Shown here: piece after piece, positions 2,486 through 17,041 of the stretch
Layout of the letters: each line of letters begins with the position of its first letter
Numbering within the stretch: the stretch's first letter is position 1
Made by a program: the position numbers and the translations under genes
Notes under the pieces: generated by a model
Told to the model about the DNA's origin: nothing
The model's input: the letters and a program-made list of their open reading frames with translations, nothing else
Database searches by the model: none
DNA from: a virus
Length of the DNA stretch: 32,532 nucleotides
Virus record (IMG/VR): IMGVR_UViG_3300009506_000204
Coordinates: 1 to 32,532 of that record
Direction: 5' to 3' (one strand)

Positions 2486-2767
2486 ATGTTTAATGTTGGT
2501 GATGAAGTAATACTTAACCGGGACTATTCTATTACAAAAATTGGGGATGTTGGGATTATCTCAAGGATCGAAAGATATGGGGTTATAGTTAAATTTCATA
2601 CTATGGCGATGCCAAACTTTATAGGAGAAGAGTTTAATATCCCAAAAGAAGACTTGCTCCATGCGGATGGTATAGTATTATCCCCCATCGAACGTAAAAT
2701 CAAGAGGATGTATGAGCGACAATCTTATTTTCTTCGACATAGAAGCGAACAAAATGAGGGTACTTGA
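2486..2767 (+). CDS. small SH3/KOW-like protein, paralogue of 618-869
   Basis: The 93-residue product starts MFNVGDEVIL, followed by IGDVGIISRI and VIVKFHT, again like a small SH3/KOW barrel. It shares its first six residues and overall plan with the product of 618-869, with the primase-helicase between the two. ATG 2486 directly follows the helicase stop, with GGAG eight bases upstream. Its tail, KIKRMYERQS, overlaps the start of the polymerase gene: the codons for this motif contain both the AAGAGG ribosome binding site and the ATG at 2712. The function is unknown. Confidence 0.7.
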   Translation: MFNVGDEVILNRDYSITKIGDVGIISRIERYGVIVKFHTMAMPNFIGEEFNIPKEDLLHADGIVLSPIERKIKRMYERQSYFLRHRSEQNEGT

Positions 2768-3491
2768 TTTTGATATTGAGGCAGACGATTACCTGCGAGA
2801 CGCTACAATTATTTGGTGTTGCGTAGGTAGGTTATCTGACACAGGAGAGTGGGTTATCTACCATGTGGATACAAAAGAAGTGGTAGAGTACCCTAAGAAT
2901 AGCCGGAGAGTTTCCTTGGGAGAGTTTCTCTTCTTGCTTGAAGAGTATGTTCCCTCTGCTTATAATTCTCTTGGGTATGATCTTCCTCTCTTGAACAAAC
3001 TACATGGCTTTGTCTATGATGTGAACAAAGTCATCGACCCGCTCATCATGTCCAGATTAAGCTTTCCAGATCGAGAGGGACATTCAATTAAAGGTTGGGG
3101 AGAAAAGTTTAAACTATATAAAGGGGAGCATAACGACTTCTCTAAATTCTCCAACGAGATGTTGCAGTATTGTTTTCAGGACACAAGAATCTTAATTAAG
3201 GCTAGGGAGTTCTTGGAGAAAGAAATGTCTGATTGGGACTGGGCAGAGAGCTTAAAACTAGAGAAGAACATCCAGTTTGTCCAGACCAAGCAAGAACTAC
3301 ATGGCGTGTTATTTGACAAGGAGAAAGCAGAGGTGTTGTTGGATACCATTAACACTGAGGTACGAAGTCTTGAGACTACTATCATCAGCGAGATTCCTAT
3401 GAGTTATAAGGACGAAGGGGAGGTGAAGAAAGTGTTTAACAAAGACGGAAGTTATACATTGTCTGTTAAGAATTGGTTGGGGGTAGCATGA
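2712..3491 (+). CDS. family A DNA polymerase, N-terminal half (3'-5' exonuclease and start of thumb)
   Basis: The 259-residue product is the proofreading half of a T7-like DNA polymerase. Exo I (DIEA) appears twice, at D9-E11 and D21-E23. Exo II is YNSLGYD (N85, D90) and Exo III is YCFQD (Y153, D157). After the exonuclease, residues 180-259 match the start of the thumb, then the frame stops at NWLGVA. The continuation is found 1.1 kb downstream at 4635-5765. ATG 2712 has AAGAGG just upstream; ATG 2754 would keep only the second Exo I copy but has a poor binding site. All exonuclease residues are present, so this half is probably active and may pair with the second half. Confidence 0.9.
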   Translation: MSDNLIFFDIEANKMRVLDFDIEADDYLRDATIIWCCVGRLSDTGEWVIYHVDTKEVVEYPKNSRRVSLGEFLFLLEEYVPSAYNSLGYDLPLLNKLHGFVYDVNKVIDPLIMSRLSFPDREGHSIKGWGEKFKLYKGEHNDFSKFSNEMLQYCFQDTRILIKAREFLEKEMSDWDWAESLKLEKNIQFVQTKQELHGVLFDKEKAEVLLDTINTEVRSLETTIISEIPMSYKDEGEVKKVFNKDGSYTLSVKNWLGVA

Positions 3492-3598
3492 AGACCTATA
3501 AAGAGTTTGCTGATAGTCTTGTTAAAAGGTATGGATTTGTTAATTGGCAATGTGAGGAAGCCTACGGAGCCGGTGGCGTGGACAGAACGCGAAATTGA
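3488..3598 (+). CDS. possible 36-residue small protein
   Basis: ATG 3488 overlaps the polymerase N-half stop as ATGA and has a GGGGG run four bases upstream, as expected for a coupled gene. It encodes MKTYKEFADSLVKRYGF and continues to a stop at 3596. The frame overlaps the next ORF extensively, so this may be a short leader peptide or the remnant of a longer gene. I recognise no function. Confidence 0.35.
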   Translation: MKTYKEFADSLVKRYGFVNWQCEEAYGAGGVDRTRN

Positions 3599-3788
3599 GT
3601 TGTTCGACGGAATGATTGAAGTGCAGAAATACCACGCCGAGCAATGCGACAGGATTGGGAATCGCGTGATGGCTGAAAAACAAAAGGGATGGGACTTAGA
3701 GAGAATCGACTTGCTCAACAAATGCAAAGCCATGCTCTCCGCATCTATCATTAAGAGGAGTGAAGAATATGACAATGAGAAGGCCTGA
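3531..3788 (+). CDS. small phage protein, unknown function, start uncertain
   Basis: This frame gives about 85 residues from ATG 3531; TTG 3507 and GTG 3552 are alternatives, and none has an ideal ribosome binding site. The part from KPTEPVAWTERE onwards, with GNRVMAEKQKGWDLERIDLL, is hydrophilic and probably helical, and looks like a genuine conserved phage protein. It is the first sizeable gene of the cassette that separates the polymerase halves. Its last codons contain AAGAGGAG, the binding site for the next gene. Confidence 0.6.
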   Translation: MDLLIGNVRKPTEPVAWTEREIELFDGMIEVQKYHAEQCDRIGNRVMAEKQKGWDLERIDLLNKCKAMLSASIIKRSEEYDNEKA

Positions 3789-3954
3789 CTTCAAAGCAAT
3801 TGCAGAGGCGCTCCGTAAGCGTCACACAGATGGGACGGTTGATAAACTCATCCTCCGAGATTTGGTTGATGACTTGTCTTCCTATTTTAGGCAATCTAAC
3901 CCGGCATTTGATAAGGGAAAGTTTGTCAAGGCTTGTGGGTTTTATCAGGAGTGA
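3769..3954 (+). CDS. small phage protein with NPAFD...ACG C-terminus
   Basis: The 61-residue product starts at ATG 3769, eight bases after AAGAGGAG. It begins MTMRRPDFKAIAEALRK and ends with YFRQSNPAFDKGKF...ACGF, a pattern I associate with a small protein common in tailed phages. Its function is unknown. It overlaps the previous gene by 20 nt and lies in the cassette between the polymerase halves. Confidence 0.7.
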   Translation: MTMRRPDFKAIAEALRKRHTDGTVDKLILRDLVDDLSSYFRQSNPAFDKGKFVKACGFYQE

Positions 3955-3956
3955 GT

Positions 3957-4106
3957 ATGGAGATTAGCAGAGAGCTTATAGAGAATTGTGTTGAACTACT
4001 TAACTTAGCTTTTAATGCTGAGGGAGATGTGTTTGGGAAAATGCACAACACCGCTTGTGATGTGGTCAATGCACTTGAAGTCTTACTCGTGGAGGGGGCA
4101 GAATGA
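3957..4106 (+). CDS. small helical protein, unknown function
   Basis: The 49-residue product starts at ATG 3957 with AGGAG five bases upstream. It is acidic and probably one or two helices (ELIENCVELLNLAFNA, DVVNALEVLLVEG). It ends in an ATGA overlap with the next gene. No family is recognised; support comes from the binding site and tight packing. Confidence 0.5.
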   Translation: MEISRELIENCVELLNLAFNAEGDVFGKMHNTACDVVNALEVLLVEGAE

Positions 4107-4315
4107 GCGATAGCCTTGCAAGCGACATTGAGCCAGACCCATTTGAAGGGGAAGAAAGAGCACCCCAAGTTTGTAAATATTGCGGAAGAAAGGGACTTAG
4201 GTGGGAGCAAGTATTGGGAAAATGGAAATTGTATGACCCTGCAGTTGCAGGCTTTCATGTTTGCCCTAGTAAGTTACAAGGAGCTTGGGATAAGTTGACA
4301 GGGATTTATAAATGA
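4103..4315 (+). CDS. small zinc-finger-like protein
   Basis: The 70-residue product has an acidic N-terminus, then CKYCGRKGLRW and later FHVCP. This gives a C-x2-C ... H-x-C set that could bind one zinc ion. ATG 4103 overlaps the previous stop and follows GGAGGGGG. Phages often carry such mini zinc ribbons without a known role. It overlaps the next gene by four bases. Confidence 0.65.
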   Translation: MSDSLASDIEPDPFEGEERAPQVCKYCGRKGLRWEQVLGKWKLYDPAVAGFHVCPSKLQGAWDKLTGIYK

Positions 4316-4488
4316 GTGTATGTAGCGATTGTATCTATTTCCAGAAACTAAAGAGTAATAAAAACATTGGCAAGTGTTCAGCACCCCTGCCATATTATGC
4401 TAAACTTGTGGAGATTTATGAGTATGTAAGCACTAATGATGTCATTGCAGAAATGTGTGATTGTTTTACGGAGGATCAAGATGAATAA
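4312..4488 (+). CDS. small Cys-rich protein
   Basis: The 58-residue product starts MSVCSDCIYF and has a further GKCSAP cysteine, then CDC near the C-terminus. It may bind zinc. ATG 4312 overlaps the upstream stop by four bases (ATGA). The end overlaps the start of the next gene, whose ribosome binding site ACGGAGG lies within its last codons. Function unknown. Confidence 0.55.
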   Translation: MSVCSDCIYFQKLKSNKNIGKCSAPLPYYAKLVEIYEYVSTNDVIAEMCDCFTEDQDE

Positions 4489-4651
4489 TGGTTTGTATGG
4501 TTATCAAGAGGCTGCCGCTCAAGCATATTGGAAAGAGAAGTATGACGACTTGCTGAGTAAATATATCAAACTGGAGGAAAAAGTTTATGCTCTTAAAGCC
4601 TCTGTGGACTTGCTTAAAGATGTGGCGCTAGAGAGTGGACAAGCCAGTTGA
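4481..4651 (+). CDS. small coiled-coil protein
   Basis: The 56-residue product starts at ATG 4481 after ACGGAGG. Residues about 16-50 (KEKYDDLLSKYIKLEEKVYALK...) have the heptad pattern of a coiled coil. It is the last gene of the cassette inside the polymerase and overlaps the start of the C-terminal polymerase half by 17 nt. Function unknown; a role in assembling the split polymerase would be speculation. Confidence 0.6.
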   Translation: MNNGLYGYQEAAAQAYWKEKYDDLLSKYIKLEEKVYALKASVDLLKDVALESGQAS

Positions 4652-5765
4652 GGGACAGGACAAGCCTGTTCAAGGCTCCTTCTGCCGCATAAGTTGGCAC
4701 CCGATTAACCTTAACAGCCCAGATCAGGTTAAGTCTTATCTGCTGTCTAAGGGTTGGGTGCCAACCGAATACAACATCAAGAAGGAGAATGGCAAGACAA
4801 TTCAAACCTCTCCGAAGCTAACAGAGGATAGCTTTGACAGTGTAGAAGGAGAGATACCAAAGCTCATTACTCGTAGGGCAATTTTAGTTCATCGTCAGCG
4901 TATGCTGAAGAATGTGAGGAAAGATGGAGAAGAAACTGGATGGCTTAACCAGCTTCGTGATGACGGCAGGCTCGAAGCTAGGGCGATTGTTAATGGAACC
5001 CCTACTGGTCGCTTTAGACATATTGGTGTGGTCAATGTTCCTTCTGCTCATGCTGTGTATGGGGCTGATATTCGGAGTCTCTTTATGGCTCCTGAAGGGT
5101 ATAGCTTTGTTGGCGTTGATGCTGCGGCGCTGGAGGCGCGTATTCAAGCGCATTATGTCTACCCTTATCGCGGAGGCAAAGAACTTGCTGAGCTACTTCT
5201 GAATGGAGACATCCATACAGAGAATTATAAGCTGTGGGATATGGCTGAACGTAATGATGCCAAGTCCCCCTATTATGCCCTGATGTATGGGGCACAGCCG
5301 CAGAAGTTGGCTGACACAATGGGTTGCTCTCTGAAGGTTGCTGAACGGCGCTATGAAGACTTTTGGAGTAAGTATACAGCTTTGGATGAGTTCAAGCAGA
5401 CCATCACTAAGGTGTGGGAGGAACGAGGAGGCAAGAAGGGAGGCTTTCTCAAGGGGCTTGATGGGCGTAAGCTGTTTGCACGAAGCCCTCATGCTCTGGT
5501 AAACTTGATGTTTCAGTCAGCAGGCTCCATATCAGTGAAGCTTGCAACGGTGTTGACTGACAAGTGGTGTGAGAAGCTAAAGCTGGATAGTGTGCAAGTG
5601 TTGCACTTTCACGACGAGTTTCAGAGAGAAACGCTTGACAGGGATGTAGAGATGGTTGTAAAATTATCCACTAAAGCGTTTGAGGAAGCGGGGAGGTATT
5701 TCAAGTTGAATGTCCCGCTGGTAGGTGAGGCAAAAGTAGGTAAGAATTGGTTTGAAACACATTAA
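4635..5765 (+). CDS. family A DNA polymerase, C-terminal half (thumb, palm and fingers)
   Basis: The 376-residue product is the polymerase half of the T7-like enzyme. Motif A is FVGVDAAALEAR (D162). Motif B is RNDAKSPYYALMYGA (R206, K210, Y214, Y218). Motif C is LHFHDEFQ (H326, D327). The TGRFRH and YGADIRSLF segments before motif A match the T7 template-binding region. Residues 15-50 match thumb sequence that follows directly in unsplit relatives. The two halves together have 635 residues, close to intact T7-type enzymes. The start is GTG 4635 with only a weak upstream AGAGAG, inside the previous gene, so coupled translation is likely. A 21-bp imperfect tandem repeat opens the gene. Confidence 0.93.
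   Translation: MDKPVEGQDKPVQGSFCRISWHPINLNSPDQVKSYLLSKGWVPTEYNIKKENGKTIQTSPKLTEDSFDSVEGEIPKLITRRAILVHRQRMLKNVRKDGEETGWLNQLRDDGRLEARAIVNGTPTGRFRHIGVVNVPSAHAVYGADIRSLFMAPEGYSFVGVDAAALEARIQAHYVYPYRGGKELAELLLNGDIHTENYKLWDMAERNDAKSPYYALMYGAQPQKLADTMGCSLKVAERRYEDFWSKYTALDEFKQTITKVWEERGGKKGGFLKGLDGRKLFARSPHALVNLMFQSAGSISVKLATVLTDKWCEKLKLDSVQVLHFHDEFQRETLDRDVEMVVKLSTKAFEEAGRYFKLNVPLVGEAKVGKNWFETH
4638..4679 (+). repeat. two-copy 21-bp tandem repeat at the start of the polymerase C-half
   Basis: Codons 2-8 and 9-15 encode DKPVEGQ and DKPVQGS in direct succession. The DNA copies differ at several positions, mostly in the last third. The repeat lies exactly at the new N-terminus made by the gene split and before sequence that is conserved in the thumb. 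Confidence 0.7.
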
Positions 5766-6571: not shown

Positions 6572-7244
6572 TGGGGACATCCTAGTATATCGAACTGCCT
6601 TTAGCTGTGAAGACAAAACCGAGATGGAGGCACTTGTCCAGTTGGACACCTATATTGAGGAGATTTTGTTTAACAGCGGGGCGGGCGAGTATAAGATTTA
6701 CCTTACCGATGGTGCCGGTAATTTCCGTAAGAAGATTTATCCAGCATATAAGGCTAACCGTAAACAACCTAAACCTAAGCATTATGAAGCTCTCCGTAAT
6801 CATCTGATTAAGGTTGAGTTGGCTGAAGTAGCTTGGGGGCAAGAGGCTGATGATGCTCTTGGGATTGCTCAGAATGATACTACTATCATCTGTTCCATTG
6901 ACAAAGATTTGCTGATGGTGGAGGGTTGGCATTACAACTTCGTCAAGGATGAGCATATTGAAATCAGTAAGGAAGATGGGCTGCGTAACTTCTACCGGCA
7001 ATTACTGACAGGGGATACGACAGATAACATCCCCGGCATTCATGGCATTGGGCCTAAGAAGGCTAATGACTTGCTGGCTGGTTGTTTCTTTGAAGAGGAG
7101 TATAATGCAATTGTCCTTAAGGCTTACAAGGAATATTTTCCTCATTGTTCAGAGCTTGATGTAATCAAACATATCAATATTATTGGACAGCTTCTTTATA
7201 TTCGTCGGAAGGAAGGAGAGGAGTGGTTTTTTGACTTGGACTGA
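6552..7244 (+). CDS. 5'-3' exonuclease, FEN/PIN-like
   Basis: The 230-residue enzyme belongs to the FEN-like family, like T7 gp6 and the Pol I 5' nuclease. These remove RNA primers and process DNA ends. Metal-binding acids are visible at D7 (IDGD), E98-D100-D101 (QEADD), D117 and D119 (SIDKD), and D155 and D158 (GDTTDN). YKANR (66-70) lies in the helical arch region, and GIHGIGPKKA is the helix-hairpin-helix DNA-binding motif. ATG 6552 is preceded by GAAGAG. Confidence 0.9.
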   Translation: MTTALIDGDILVYRTAFSCEDKTEMEALVQLDTYIEEILFNSGAGEYKIYLTDGAGNFRKKIYPAYKANRKQPKPKHYEALRNHLIKVELAEVAWGQEADDALGIAQNDTTIICSIDKDLLMVEGWHYNFVKDEHIEISKEDGLRNFYRQLLTGDTTDNIPGIHGIGPKKANDLLAGCFFEEEYNAIVLKAYKEYFPHCSELDVIKHINIIGQLLYIRRKEGEEWFFDLD

Positions 7245-7584
7245 GGGAAGACTTAAATCCTTCCTAACATCCGTAATCAGGGCAGGATTTAGGAAGTATC
7301 CAGCGAAGTATGAATGCCTTAATGCAGCAAAGACAGAGAAGAAGGTGAACGAGGCTACAGGACGACTTGCGTGGCATTACACTTGTAACAAATGCAAGAA
7401 ACTCTTTGTAGCCAGCGAAGTCCAAGTCGATCACATTAAGCCAGTGGTTGACCCGAAGAAAGGGTTTGTTGATTGGAATACGTTCATCGAAAGGCTCTAT
7501 TGTGGGGCTGACAACCTTCAATGTCTTTGCAAGGGCTGTCATGCAAAGAAAACTGAAAAAGAAAGAAAGGTGAGGAATAAATGA
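7231..7584 (+). CDS. HNH endonuclease, replication module
   Basis: The 117-residue product carries an HNH nuclease core: C52-x2-C55, then QVDHIKP (D67, H68), N95 and CKGCH (C100, C103, H104). I place the start at TTG 7231 because AGGAGAGGAG ends seven bases upstream and the resulting MTWTEGRLKSF start looks natural; the longer frame from 7183 lies inside the exonuclease gene. Its place after the exonuclease suggests a replication or recombination role, perhaps replacing T7 endonuclease I, rather than homing. That is an inference. Confidence 0.8.
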   Translation: MTWTEGRLKSFLTSVIRAGFRKYPAKYECLNAAKTEKKVNEATGRLAWHYTCNKCKKLFVASEVQVDHIKPVVDPKKGFVDWNTFIERLYCGADNLQCLCKGCHAKKTEKERKVRNK

Positions 7585-9938: not shown

Positions 9939-10095
9939 GCACCTTTGGAGGAAGCCTCCTAGCTGTCTTGATGCAGCCTATGAACGAAAAGCAATTGAGC
10001 AAGGCCTAGTAGTTCAGCCTGTGTTTAAAGAGAACAACCTGCAGGAAGAGTATGCAGGGTATATTATTCAAGATAAGGAATCAGATGAAAATTGA
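9910..10095 (+). CDS. small protein, unknown function
   Basis: The 61-residue product from ATG 9910 begins MNQKSTKTVEHLWRKPPSCL and is otherwise hydrophilic. GGAGAT lies upstream. A longer frame from 9808 would run mostly inside the previous gene and has no clear start, so I reject that extension. It overlaps the HNH gene start by 11 nt. Confidence 0.6.
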   Translation: MNQKSTKTVEHLWRKPPSCLDAAYERKAIEQGLVVQPVFKENNLQEEYAGYIIQDKESDEN

Positions 10096-10660
10096 AAAAG
10101 TTTCTAGAGGGCCTCCTGCAAACTTGATCGGGCAACGATTTGGGAGGTGGAGGGTGCTCGGCATATCCACCCACAAGAACCAAGGGAGGCAATACTTGCA
10201 GTGTGAGTGCGATTGCGGGACCATTCGGGATGTTATGAAATACTCCATCCTCCGTGGAAAGAGCACCTCCTGCGGATGTTTAAAACTAGAGAACATCAAA
10301 AAAGCAATTAGCCTGCCTAATGGTGTCTCTGGTTTTAATCGCCTCTACAAAAGGTACAAGAAAGGGGCAGAGGGTCGTAATCTCCCGTTCTCCTTATCTG
10401 AGGAGGAGTTTAAGTCCCTTGTAGAGAGTCCCTGTCATTATTGCGGGGATACCAAAACTTTGGTAACTTGTGGAAATGGTAAAAGCAACCCATACCACCA
10501 CAATGGCATTGACAGGGTAGACAATAACTATGGTTATGTTGCAGGGAATGTAGCACCTTGTTGTAATGTTTGCAACAGCATGAAAAGTGTTTTACCCTAT
10601 GAAATGTTCTTGGGGCAAGTAGGAAAGATTTACGACAATCTCAAGGAGAGATATTATTAA
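10085..10660 (+). CDS. free-standing HNH homing-type endonuclease
   Basis: The 191-residue product has an N-terminal DNA-binding module with a Cys cluster (C40, C42, C44, then C63 and C65) and the NLIGQRFGRW opening typical of phage homing-type nucleases. The C-terminal HNH core has C117-x2-C120, HHNGIDRVDN (H138, D143, N147), N155 and CCNVC (C159-C163). Such enzymes cut DNA and spread as selfish elements. ATG 10085 follows AAGGA. Its 3' end overlaps the next frame by 5 nt, and the downstream gene appears to lack a normal start, which fits insertion at this point. Confidence 0.85.
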   Translation: MKIEKVSRGPPANLIGQRFGRWRVLGISTHKNQGRQYLQCECDCGTIRDVMKYSILRGKSTSCGCLKLENIKKAISLPNGVSGFNRLYKRYKKGAEGRNLPFSLSEEEFKSLVESPCHYCGDTKTLVTCGNGKSNPYHHNGIDRVDNNYGYVAGNVAPCCNVCNSMKSVLPYEMFLGQVGKIYDNLKERYY

Positions 10661-15414: not shown

Positions 15415-15704
15415 TACATATTAAACCAAGTGTTGACTTCGTTATTATAAATCTGCTGCTTCTCTGCTGACGTTACATGCTGATAGTCTGCTACAGCCCC
15501 TCCCTGAATATTCTGCAAGTCGTTATGGTTACGAGTAGCAATGTCTGTTAGGTTTGATCCTGTAAAGTTAAGCTGAGTCCACAGGATTTGCCCTACGGCA
15601 GATACTTTATGGGAGATACGAGCAAACCAGTTTTGCCACTGAGGTCCAGTTAAGTCCCCCGGATTGGAGGCTGGCGGAGGTGGCGGAAAAGGAACAGTAG
15701 CCAT
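15414..15704 (-). CDS. tail-fibre-like protein with HNDL...QGG motif
   Basis: The 96-residue product has a Pro-rich N-terminus (PFPPPPPASNPGDL) and a C-terminal NHNDLQNIQGGAVADYQHVT. The HNDLxxIQGG...YxH segment is a short repeat seen in phage fibre and appendage proteins. It may join an appendage to the virion. The start contacts the PurD-like gene stop. Confidence 0.6.
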   Translation of the reverse strand: MATVPFPPPPPASNPGDLTGPQWQNWFARISHKVSAVGQILWTQLNFTGSNLTDIATRNHNDLQNIQGGAVADYQHVTSAEKQQIYNNEVNTWFNM

Positions 15705-17041
15705 TAGCAGTATTCCATGTCAGTAGCATACCCCATTTCGTGCAATGTGTCAAGCTGTTCTTCCAGCCTCTCTCCAATGTCATTACGATAGATGGGGCTG
15801 TTAGGTATCACCAATTCCTTAATAACCTTGTAGGAGGCTTCTGAGGCCTCTACAACGGTCTTCCCAACACCAGAGACAACCAAGCAATAGTCTCCTGCGG
15901 TCACTGGCATTTCCTCCATCTCAATACCCTCTTCCTCCACCTCAGGGGCCTCCCCAAGCTGAATCTCACAAAGATGGATATGCTCTTTATTCTTGTCCGT
16001 AATTCCATAGATCGGAACCCCACTCACTTCCTTCTTGGTAAGGTGGGAATAAGGGAAGTCAGGGATTGCTACAACAACTCCGACAGCAATCTTATTCTTC
16101 TTGATCTTCAAGGTATCCTTCCCATCAATCAAATCCACCATCCACTGAGCAGGGTCTCCCTCATGCAGAGCACATTGAATCTGGAAACAAGGCCAGCCCG
16201 GGCGCATAGTGAACTCCAGAGGCCACGGAGTGCCCTTCTCGTCAATAATGCAATTAACGTCCACATACCCTACATAGCCGATTTCTTTCAATTGCTGCTC
16301 ACAAGGAATTAACACCTTCTCGGCAAGCTCAGACTTCTCTACATAGCGTTCAACAGTGCCCATCTCCCCTGTGGCAACACCAATGTCACCAGCCATTAGC
16401 TTCTTCTGTTCCCAGTTCTCGCAGAAATACTTGGAGAACCCATTAGGACCAAACCACCCACCAACAGCCATCTCAATACCGGGAGTGAACTCCTGAAGGA
16501 TGAAGCTGCCCTTCAAGGCATTCTTCTTCTTCCACTTCATCAGCATGTACACCAAGTCATCATAGCTCTTACTTACATAGGAAAGAGCACGGTCAGAATC
16601 ACCAGCAGCTTTAGAAACAAAACGCTTCTTAGGGTTCTTCTTAAACTCTTCCGCAAGAAATGCAATAGCTTTATCATAGGACGAAAACTCCGTAGTGGGC
16701 AGCACTTTAACTCCAGCCCGTTTGAAGACTTCTTGACCCTTGTTTCTATCTAATTCCCACTCAGCAGCAGCCATGTTTGGTCCGAAGATTGGGAACCCCC
16801 TCTTGTAGAAGCTCTCCAGCCTGTCAATGTGCTTATTGTTATCTGTCACGAAGATGAGGTCAGCCCACCTCATATCACCAGCATTCCATTCCCTAATCTT
16901 GGGAACCATGCCATCCCCGGTCTTATTGATGGCCCCATCCTTAGTCTTATCCATGTACCAACGAATAGTATGCCCTGCCTCTTGACAGCGAAGCGCCCAA
17001 TCAAGGGCGTTAGCTGCGGGATCAATAATAAGGATGTTCAT
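15704..17041 (-). CDS. PurD-like ATP-grasp enzyme in the late operon
   Basis: The 445-residue product has the plan of phosphoribosylamine-glycine ligase: an N-terminal domain, an ATP-grasp core, and a C-terminal domain. Matching segments are GDIGVATGEMGTV (219-230), PLEFTMRPGWP (274-284), VVVAIPDFPYSH, and GDYCLVVSGVG plus YRNDIGERL near the end. Two signatures differ: the LEFN metal-ligand motif reads LEFT (E276, T278), and the N-terminal GGREHA motif is absent (DPAANALDWALR instead). So the ATP-grasp fold looks kept but the substrate is probably not that of PurD. It lies between the ejection gene and fibre-like genes and is joined to both by short overlaps. Confidence 0.8.
   Translation of the reverse strand: MNILIIDPAANALDWALRCQEAGHTIRWYMDKTKDGAINKTGDGMVPKIREWNAGDMRWADLIFVTDNNKHIDRLESFYKRGFPIFGPNMAAAEWELDRNKGQEVFKRAGVKVLPTTEFSSYDKAIAFLAEEFKKNPKKRFVSKAAGDSDRALSYVSKSYDDLVYMLMKWKKKNALKGSFILQEFTPGIEMAVGGWFGPNGFSKYFCENWEQKKLMAGDIGVATGEMGTVERYVEKSELAEKVLIPCEQQLKEIGYVGYVDVNCIIDEKGTPWPLEFTMRPGWPCFQIQCALHEGDPAQWMVDLIDGKDTLKIKKNKIAVGVVVAIPDFPYSHLTKKEVSGVPIYGITDKNKEHIHLCEIQLGEAPEVEEEGIEMEEMPVTAGDYCLVVSGVGKTVVEASEASYKVIKELVIPNSPIYRNDIGERLEEQLDTLHEMGYATDMEYC

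Follow-up and report, generated by a model that had tools for sequence, protein, structure and literature searches.

A T7-type family A DNA polymerase encoded by two genes and divided within the thumb

Known split replication enzymes and the locus described here

Several phages are known to carry a replication enzyme in more than one gene. In the LUZ24 group, proofreading and polymerase have been published as separate genes (PMC3517423, PMC3890496), and in OM43 phage MEP401/MEP402 and others of the MEP401 type a family A polymerase takes the form of two open reading frames (ORFs) parted by a small gene (PMC10580990). Arrangements associated with homing endonucleases include Aeh1 nrdA/mobE, T4 gene 60/39 with mobA, and 43A/43B of Aeromonas phage 25; the split NrdA of Aeh1 is active, and phage 25 gp43A/B co-purify with polymerase activity (PMC2988022). 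Here we describe a viral fragment of 32,532 nt (IMG/VR record IMGVR_UViG_3300009506_000204, positions 1-32,532; hereafter the window), in which a T7-type family A DNA polymerase is encoded by two genes, at 2712-3491 and 4635-5765. This split polymerase is a recurring form of the known phage habit of keeping genes in pieces, and is neither damage nor a new system.

The closest parallels differ from the window in where the enzyme is cut. Like the window, the LUZ24-like phages (LUZ24, PaP3, tf, UFV-P2) distribute a family A polymerase over separate genes and carry a cassette of small genes between these, which in LUZ24 numbers eight ORFs. However, the LUZ24 break falls at the exonuclease-thumb boundary (profile position 159/166), whereas that of the window falls at 249, about 85 residues later and in the thumb; a second LUZ24 break is located in the palm. 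In MEP401-type phages the break lies just ahead of motif A in the palm. The enzymes of Aeh1, T4 and phage 25 are a ribonucleotide reductase, a topoisomerase and a family B polymerase, respectively, and their endonuclease association contrasts with a gap in the window that holds small genes only. Lentibacter phage ICBM2 (Cobavirinae) has adjacent, overlapping exonuclease-subunit and polymerase genes without a cassette; its C-terminal match starts only at profile position 88, and its break is probably elsewhere than the window's. Finally, T7 gp5 shares fold and motifs with the family of the window but is a single chain, with a longer thioredoxin-binding insert where the window is cut. We found no description of the thumb split site, or of its recurrence, in the open-access literature, and make no claim of priority.

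Two complementary halves and the position of the break

The first gene (2712-3491, + strand; the N half) encodes 259 residues that comprise the 3'-5' exonuclease domain and the first half of the thumb. It matches PHROG 17 (DNA polymerase, E 4e-28) and PHROG 403 (exonuclease subunit, 2e-10), and a Pfam search gave zero matches to it. Its four catalytic acids, D21 and E23 of Exo I (2772-2780), D90 of Exo II (2979-2981) and D157 of Exo III (3180-3182), are invariant across 21 aligned sequences. The protein ends in W255-LGVA, just past a thumb helix. When modelled alone with AlphaFold, it reaches a predicted local distance difference test score (pLDDT) of 88 and is confident save for the first 13 residues. 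The first 14 residues, which have low model confidence, duplicate an Exo I-like stretch (FFDIEANK, then DFDIEADD; 2712-2780). ATG 2754 is an alternative start, yet the Shine-Dalgarno sequence is located at 2712.

The second gene (4635-5765, + strand; the C half) encodes the rest of the thumb, the palm and the fingers in 376 residues. It is a PF00476 family A polymerase domain (E 1.2e-31) with all three motifs present, the alignment placing motif A at D162 to E167 (5118-5135), motif B at R206, K210, Y214, Y218 and G219 (5250-5291), and motif C at H326, D327 and E328 (5610-5618). GTG 4635 is the sole start codon ahead of the conserved C region, and it aligns with the ATG of a relative, L002. An earlier note on this DNA, made from the sequence alone, had put Exo I-III and the beginning of the thumb in the one gene and the remaining thumb with intact motifs A, B and C in the other, and both assignments hold.

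Two further relatives, L004 and L005, have the polymerase unsplit. Aligned with them, the halves of the window are exactly complementary and meet without overlap: the N half ends in ..VKNWLGVA and the C half resumes with ..VQGSFCRI, where L004 reads ..VLDWLNTDNPECVVGPFTRI. Loss or replacement at the break is limited to a loop of about nine residues; apart from this loop, the residues flanking the break are adjacent in the unsplit enzyme, as the note had expected. The same alignment bears on whether the parts could be joined after translation by a split intein. Such fractured genes are known; that for PolB in phage MIJ3, for example, has an endonuclease gene between its parts (PMC6892783). In the window, at most three residues lie between the conserved core and the end of the N half, and about 13 between the core and the start of the C half, which leaves no room for the N and C parts of an intein and makes such joining scarcely credible.

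The T7 fold was tested on the unsplit L004 as a single chain. Its AlphaFold model has a pLDDT of 93.7, the best Foldseek match is T7 polymerase 6p7e (E 3.7e-42), and comparison with T7 2ajq gives Z 37.9 over 539 residues, which identifies the T7 polymerase fold. The break corresponds to L004 residues 232-240, between a helix (225-230) and a strand (243-249), and is contained in the internal block of lowest confidence in that model (residues 231-240, pLDDT 68). Its equivalent in T7 gp5 is at about residues 318-320, just past the loop 300-314 and at the end of the thioredoxin-binding insert. The loop 300-314 belongs to the thioredoxin-binding domain and is not resolved in 2ajq (PMC8867116). As modelled, then, the split site is a loop exposed at the thumb tip, and the thumb is predicted to be shared out between two chains.

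Recurrence of the split and the case for an assembled enzyme

A first search of IMG/VR returned four relatives, of which L002 and L003 are cut at the site of the window and L004 and L005 are unsplit. Searching IMG/VR with the N half by itself produced no matches, and alignment-based searches succeeded, yielding about 160 loci, some of them repeats of one contig. These were sorted into split and unsplit by separate profiles for each half, giving 82 unsplit and 23 split non-redundant loci. Eighteen of the 23 are cut at the window's site (site B) and four at the exonuclease-thumb boundary (site A), the remaining one being ICBM2; related phages thus hold both unsplit and differently split genes, which the earlier note had proposed to look for. 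Since the same position is cut in independent contigs, beginning with L002 and L003, chance or error does not account for the split. Evidently, a replicative polymerase can be cut inside the thumb, beside the processivity-factor site, and stay so in many phages. Gene callers, polA marker surveys and domain searches that assume a single chain can miss or miscount such phages, as the empty Pfam result for the N half illustrates.

Other forms of the split were seen as well. The site A lineages (L014, L030, L042, L071) are four separate ones scattered over the tree, with a boundary break as in LUZ24. L176 (MW202796, 6923-12392) is broken just ahead of motif A, where a cytosine methyltransferase is among the genes of a 3.6-kb cassette, and a break just ahead of motif A is also present in MEP401 and in Alcaligenes phage QDWS535. 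No isolate with the window's exact split was recognised among the best 25-40 of several hundred to 3,441 records.

Both halves appear to be maintained. The ratio of nonsynonymous to synonymous substitution (dN/dS) is 0.06-0.28 for both halves across the computable split pairs, which denotes purifying selection; in the clearest pair, L034-L041, the N half has a dN of 0.04 and a dS of 0.55. Moreover, PF00476 matches just once in the window and once in each of 12 other split records (23-61 kb), and none of these 13 records yielded another family A polymerase. For the window this includes the search for an intact polymerase gene, which the earlier note had named as grounds for abandoning the two-gene interpretation; none was found in the 32.5-kb fragment.

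Given that the halves are complete and complementary, are kept in many phages under purifying selection, and are accompanied by no second family A polymerase, the best reading is assembly, and we consider it likely that the polymerase of this phage is a T7-type enzyme in pieces, made of two chains that come together. Both chains would be translated from a single early transcript, the first supplying the proofreading exonuclease together with the initial half of the thumb, and the second the rest of the thumb, the palm and the fingers; they would associate by completing the thumb and so form one proofreading enzyme. The break itself would have arisen when mobile DNA, with a free-standing homing endonuclease as the likeliest candidate, inserted into the sequence of the thumb-tip loop; the inserted gene would later have disappeared or given way to ordinary small genes of the phage, and these would now be carried along in the gap.

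Several observations weigh against this account. The dS of most pairs approaches saturation, and that between the window and L002 is saturated. The window is a fragment, and a second polymerase might lie beyond its 32.5 kb. Its C gene begins with GTG and lacks a clear Shine-Dalgarno sequence, and its translation must depend on coupling to the upstream ORF. Lastly, a recognised endonuclease gene is present in only one of the 18 site-B spacers, that of L034, and in the window the Pfam and PHROG searches found none in the spacer (3492-4634); a homing origin for the window is for this reason an extrapolation.

The two products might also act separately, the C product being a polymerase without exonuclease and the N product either a free exonuclease or a remnant in decay. 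The N half does model well by itself, other phages have annotated stand-alone genes for a "DNA polymerase exonuclease subunit" (LUZ24 gp25, PHROG 403), and the N half is unusually diverged between the window and L002 (46% identity, versus 80% for the C half). However, the break is within the thumb, away from the exonuclease boundary, and leaves each chain with half a structural domain, which favours assembly over an independent exonuclease. In split phages the N half retains its thumb tail, and the purifying selection described above extends to both halves. N halves of split phages in general evolve no faster than those of unsplit phages, and a useless, fast-evolving N half was rejected on this comparison of split with unsplit pairs. 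We thus regard separate action as unlikely, and an enzyme assembled from two chains as the better description of the locus.

The small-gene cassette and the origin of the break

The gap between the halves (3492-4634) measures 1,143 bases and holds six or seven small genes, all on the + strand. The earlier note had counted up to seven, most with ribosome binding sites and short overlaps. The common strand and, for several ORFs, Shine-Dalgarno-like sequences and ATGA overlaps bear this out; the number is likely six, because the ORFs at 3488-3598 (36 residues) and 3531-3788 (85 residues), which overlap in different frames, read like one frameshifted gene. Cassette gene 1 (3488-3788) is probably this single gene, with a frameshift that is either real or an assembly indel, and its ATG shares bases with the N half's stop codon (ATGA). 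Gene 2 (3769-3954, 61 residues) is 47-49% identical to L002 and 36% identical to gp44 of mycobacteriophage Predator, around which no annotated polymerase gene was found within the 11 kb read. Gene 3 (3957-4106, 49 residues) has a Shine-Dalgarno-like sequence. Gene 4 (4103-4315, 70 residues), preceded by GGAGG and joined by an ATGA overlap, is zinc-ribbon-like (CxxC...C), and no match to it was found in phage records. Gene 5 (4312-4488, 58 residues) is cysteine-rich, with 36% identity to a homologue in the L002 cassette. Gene 6 (4481-4651, 56 residues) has GGAGG ahead of 4481 and runs 17 bases into the start of the C half.

Genes 2 and 5 are the two with homologues in the L002 cassette, no homologue of the others being found among the fetched loci. 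No Pfam family was above threshold for the cassette of the window, and PHROG gave a single weak match, of unknown function; weak matches to families of unknown function were also obtained for cassette genes of relatives. In the other split clades the cassettes are unrelated in content. The gap ranges from a 26-base gene overlap in L052, which has no cassette, to 2,732 bases (2.7 kb) in L017, and it contains small genes in every split locus except L052. In one clade it consists of chains of small ORFs (about 40-70 residues), each overlapping the next (L034 4066-4331, L039 4376-4847, L041 4413-4991), many of which end in an LKVKRVL-like tail.

Few genes are shared, the cassettes of other clades are unrelated, and the Predator relative has no polymerase nearby; on these comparisons the cassette is most likely hitch-hiking cargo that would stay outside the enzyme. 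At least one cassette protein could instead belong to the polymerase, perhaps helping the halves to assemble or conferring processivity where the thioredoxin-binding region is split, given that T7 binds its processivity factor at the position of the break and that small genes occur in all split loci but one. Against this, the genes are not common to the different lineages, L052 does without them, and one gene of the window has its mycobacteriophage relative in 11 kb of surroundings without an annotated polymerase. A polymerase subunit among the cassette proteins is hence very unlikely, and we return to the cassette as cargo.

The gap could further be read as an intron, group I or similar, with the parts joined by RNA splicing, as authors have suggested for the polymerase genes of MEP401 (PMC10580990) and UFV-P2. 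Group I introns do exist in this gene family: Rfam places them in the palm-coding part of the C half in L052 (4105-4406), L079 (918-1160) and L081 (5554-5915), which accounts for a further palm break in these three. Splicing across the gap had been raised by the earlier note as a possible undoing of the two-gene reading; Rfam, run over the window and 25 other loci, finds no group I intron at the split site, be it in the window or in the site-B relatives searched. In addition, the spacer consists of small genes of coding type, each with a start of its own, and among the split loci its length varies from -14 to 2,732 bases without any relation in content. An intron between the halves is accordingly highly improbable, and the two genes are better taken as separately translated. 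A group I intron outside the polymerase gene was seen in L003 (10541-10723), after a frame resembling the ribonucleotide reductase gene of the window.

In trees of the C half, the site-B splits fall into three clades with unsplit phages in between. A single origin of all site-B splits was rejected by approximately unbiased (AU) tests on both halves (C, p 0.0005; N, p 0.0009). Joining the first two clades was not rejected on the C half (p 0.53), while the N half gave p 0.04, and the count of three origins was reduced on the C result. The trees therefore suggest at least two origins of the site-B split, or else one origin with re-fusions; the same break would have arisen at least twice, or been undone and remade.

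The most direct view of a possible mechanism comes from L034. Its spacer carries, at the split site, an endonuclease VII-type gene (4317-4994; PF02945, E 1e-21). Ahead of this gene, 44 bases matching L041 remain from the old start of a C gene, and beyond it lies a C gene that is intact but further diverged. DNA identity between L034 and L041 falls from about 83-92% to 76% at the endonuclease junction. The N tree groups the two loci, and the C tree rejects their grouping (p 0.002); the reverse test on the N half gives p 0.067. This pattern fits an endonuclease-driven insertion with replacement of the C half, a snapshot of the likely mechanism in one case of 18, and it suggests that the two halves can have differing histories. 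For the window and L002, replacement of the N half is suggestive from the contrast in identity, but is not claimed, as the N tree still joins the pair with support (71/66) that is not strong.

A wider scheme would have the tip of the thumb, the processivity-factor site of T7, repeatedly hit by homing endonucleases, with independent breaks giving a two-subunit enzyme whose exonuclease and polymerase halves pass from phage to phage; in some lineages a protein of the cassette would now serve as assembly or processivity factor at the split. As a whole we judge this quite unlikely. The split loci form a natural series of split enzymes in which to ask how broken genes survive, whether endonucleases cause the break, and whether subunits are exchanged.

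Neighbouring genes

Upstream of the split polymerase lies a primase-helicase gene (848-2485, + strand) with Toprim and DnaB_C domains (PF03796, E 8.6e-21; PF13155, 3e-05), which is 83% identical to its L002 counterpart. A small gene (2486-2767, + strand) separates it from the exonuclease half, and L002 has two related copies of this gene (40% and 30% identity). Elsewhere in the window, an HNH endonuclease gene (7183-7584, PF01844) overlaps the end of a 5'-3' exonuclease gene, and a further HNH-like ORF is found at 10052-10660. An ATP-grasp protein like phosphoribosylglycinamide synthetase (PF02843, PF01071) is encoded on the minus strand at 15704-17041, amid other minus-strand genes. In L003, two upstream genes (3-722 and 921-1553) consist of repeated DAWVSGNAQVYGNA-like units in highly repetitive DNA.

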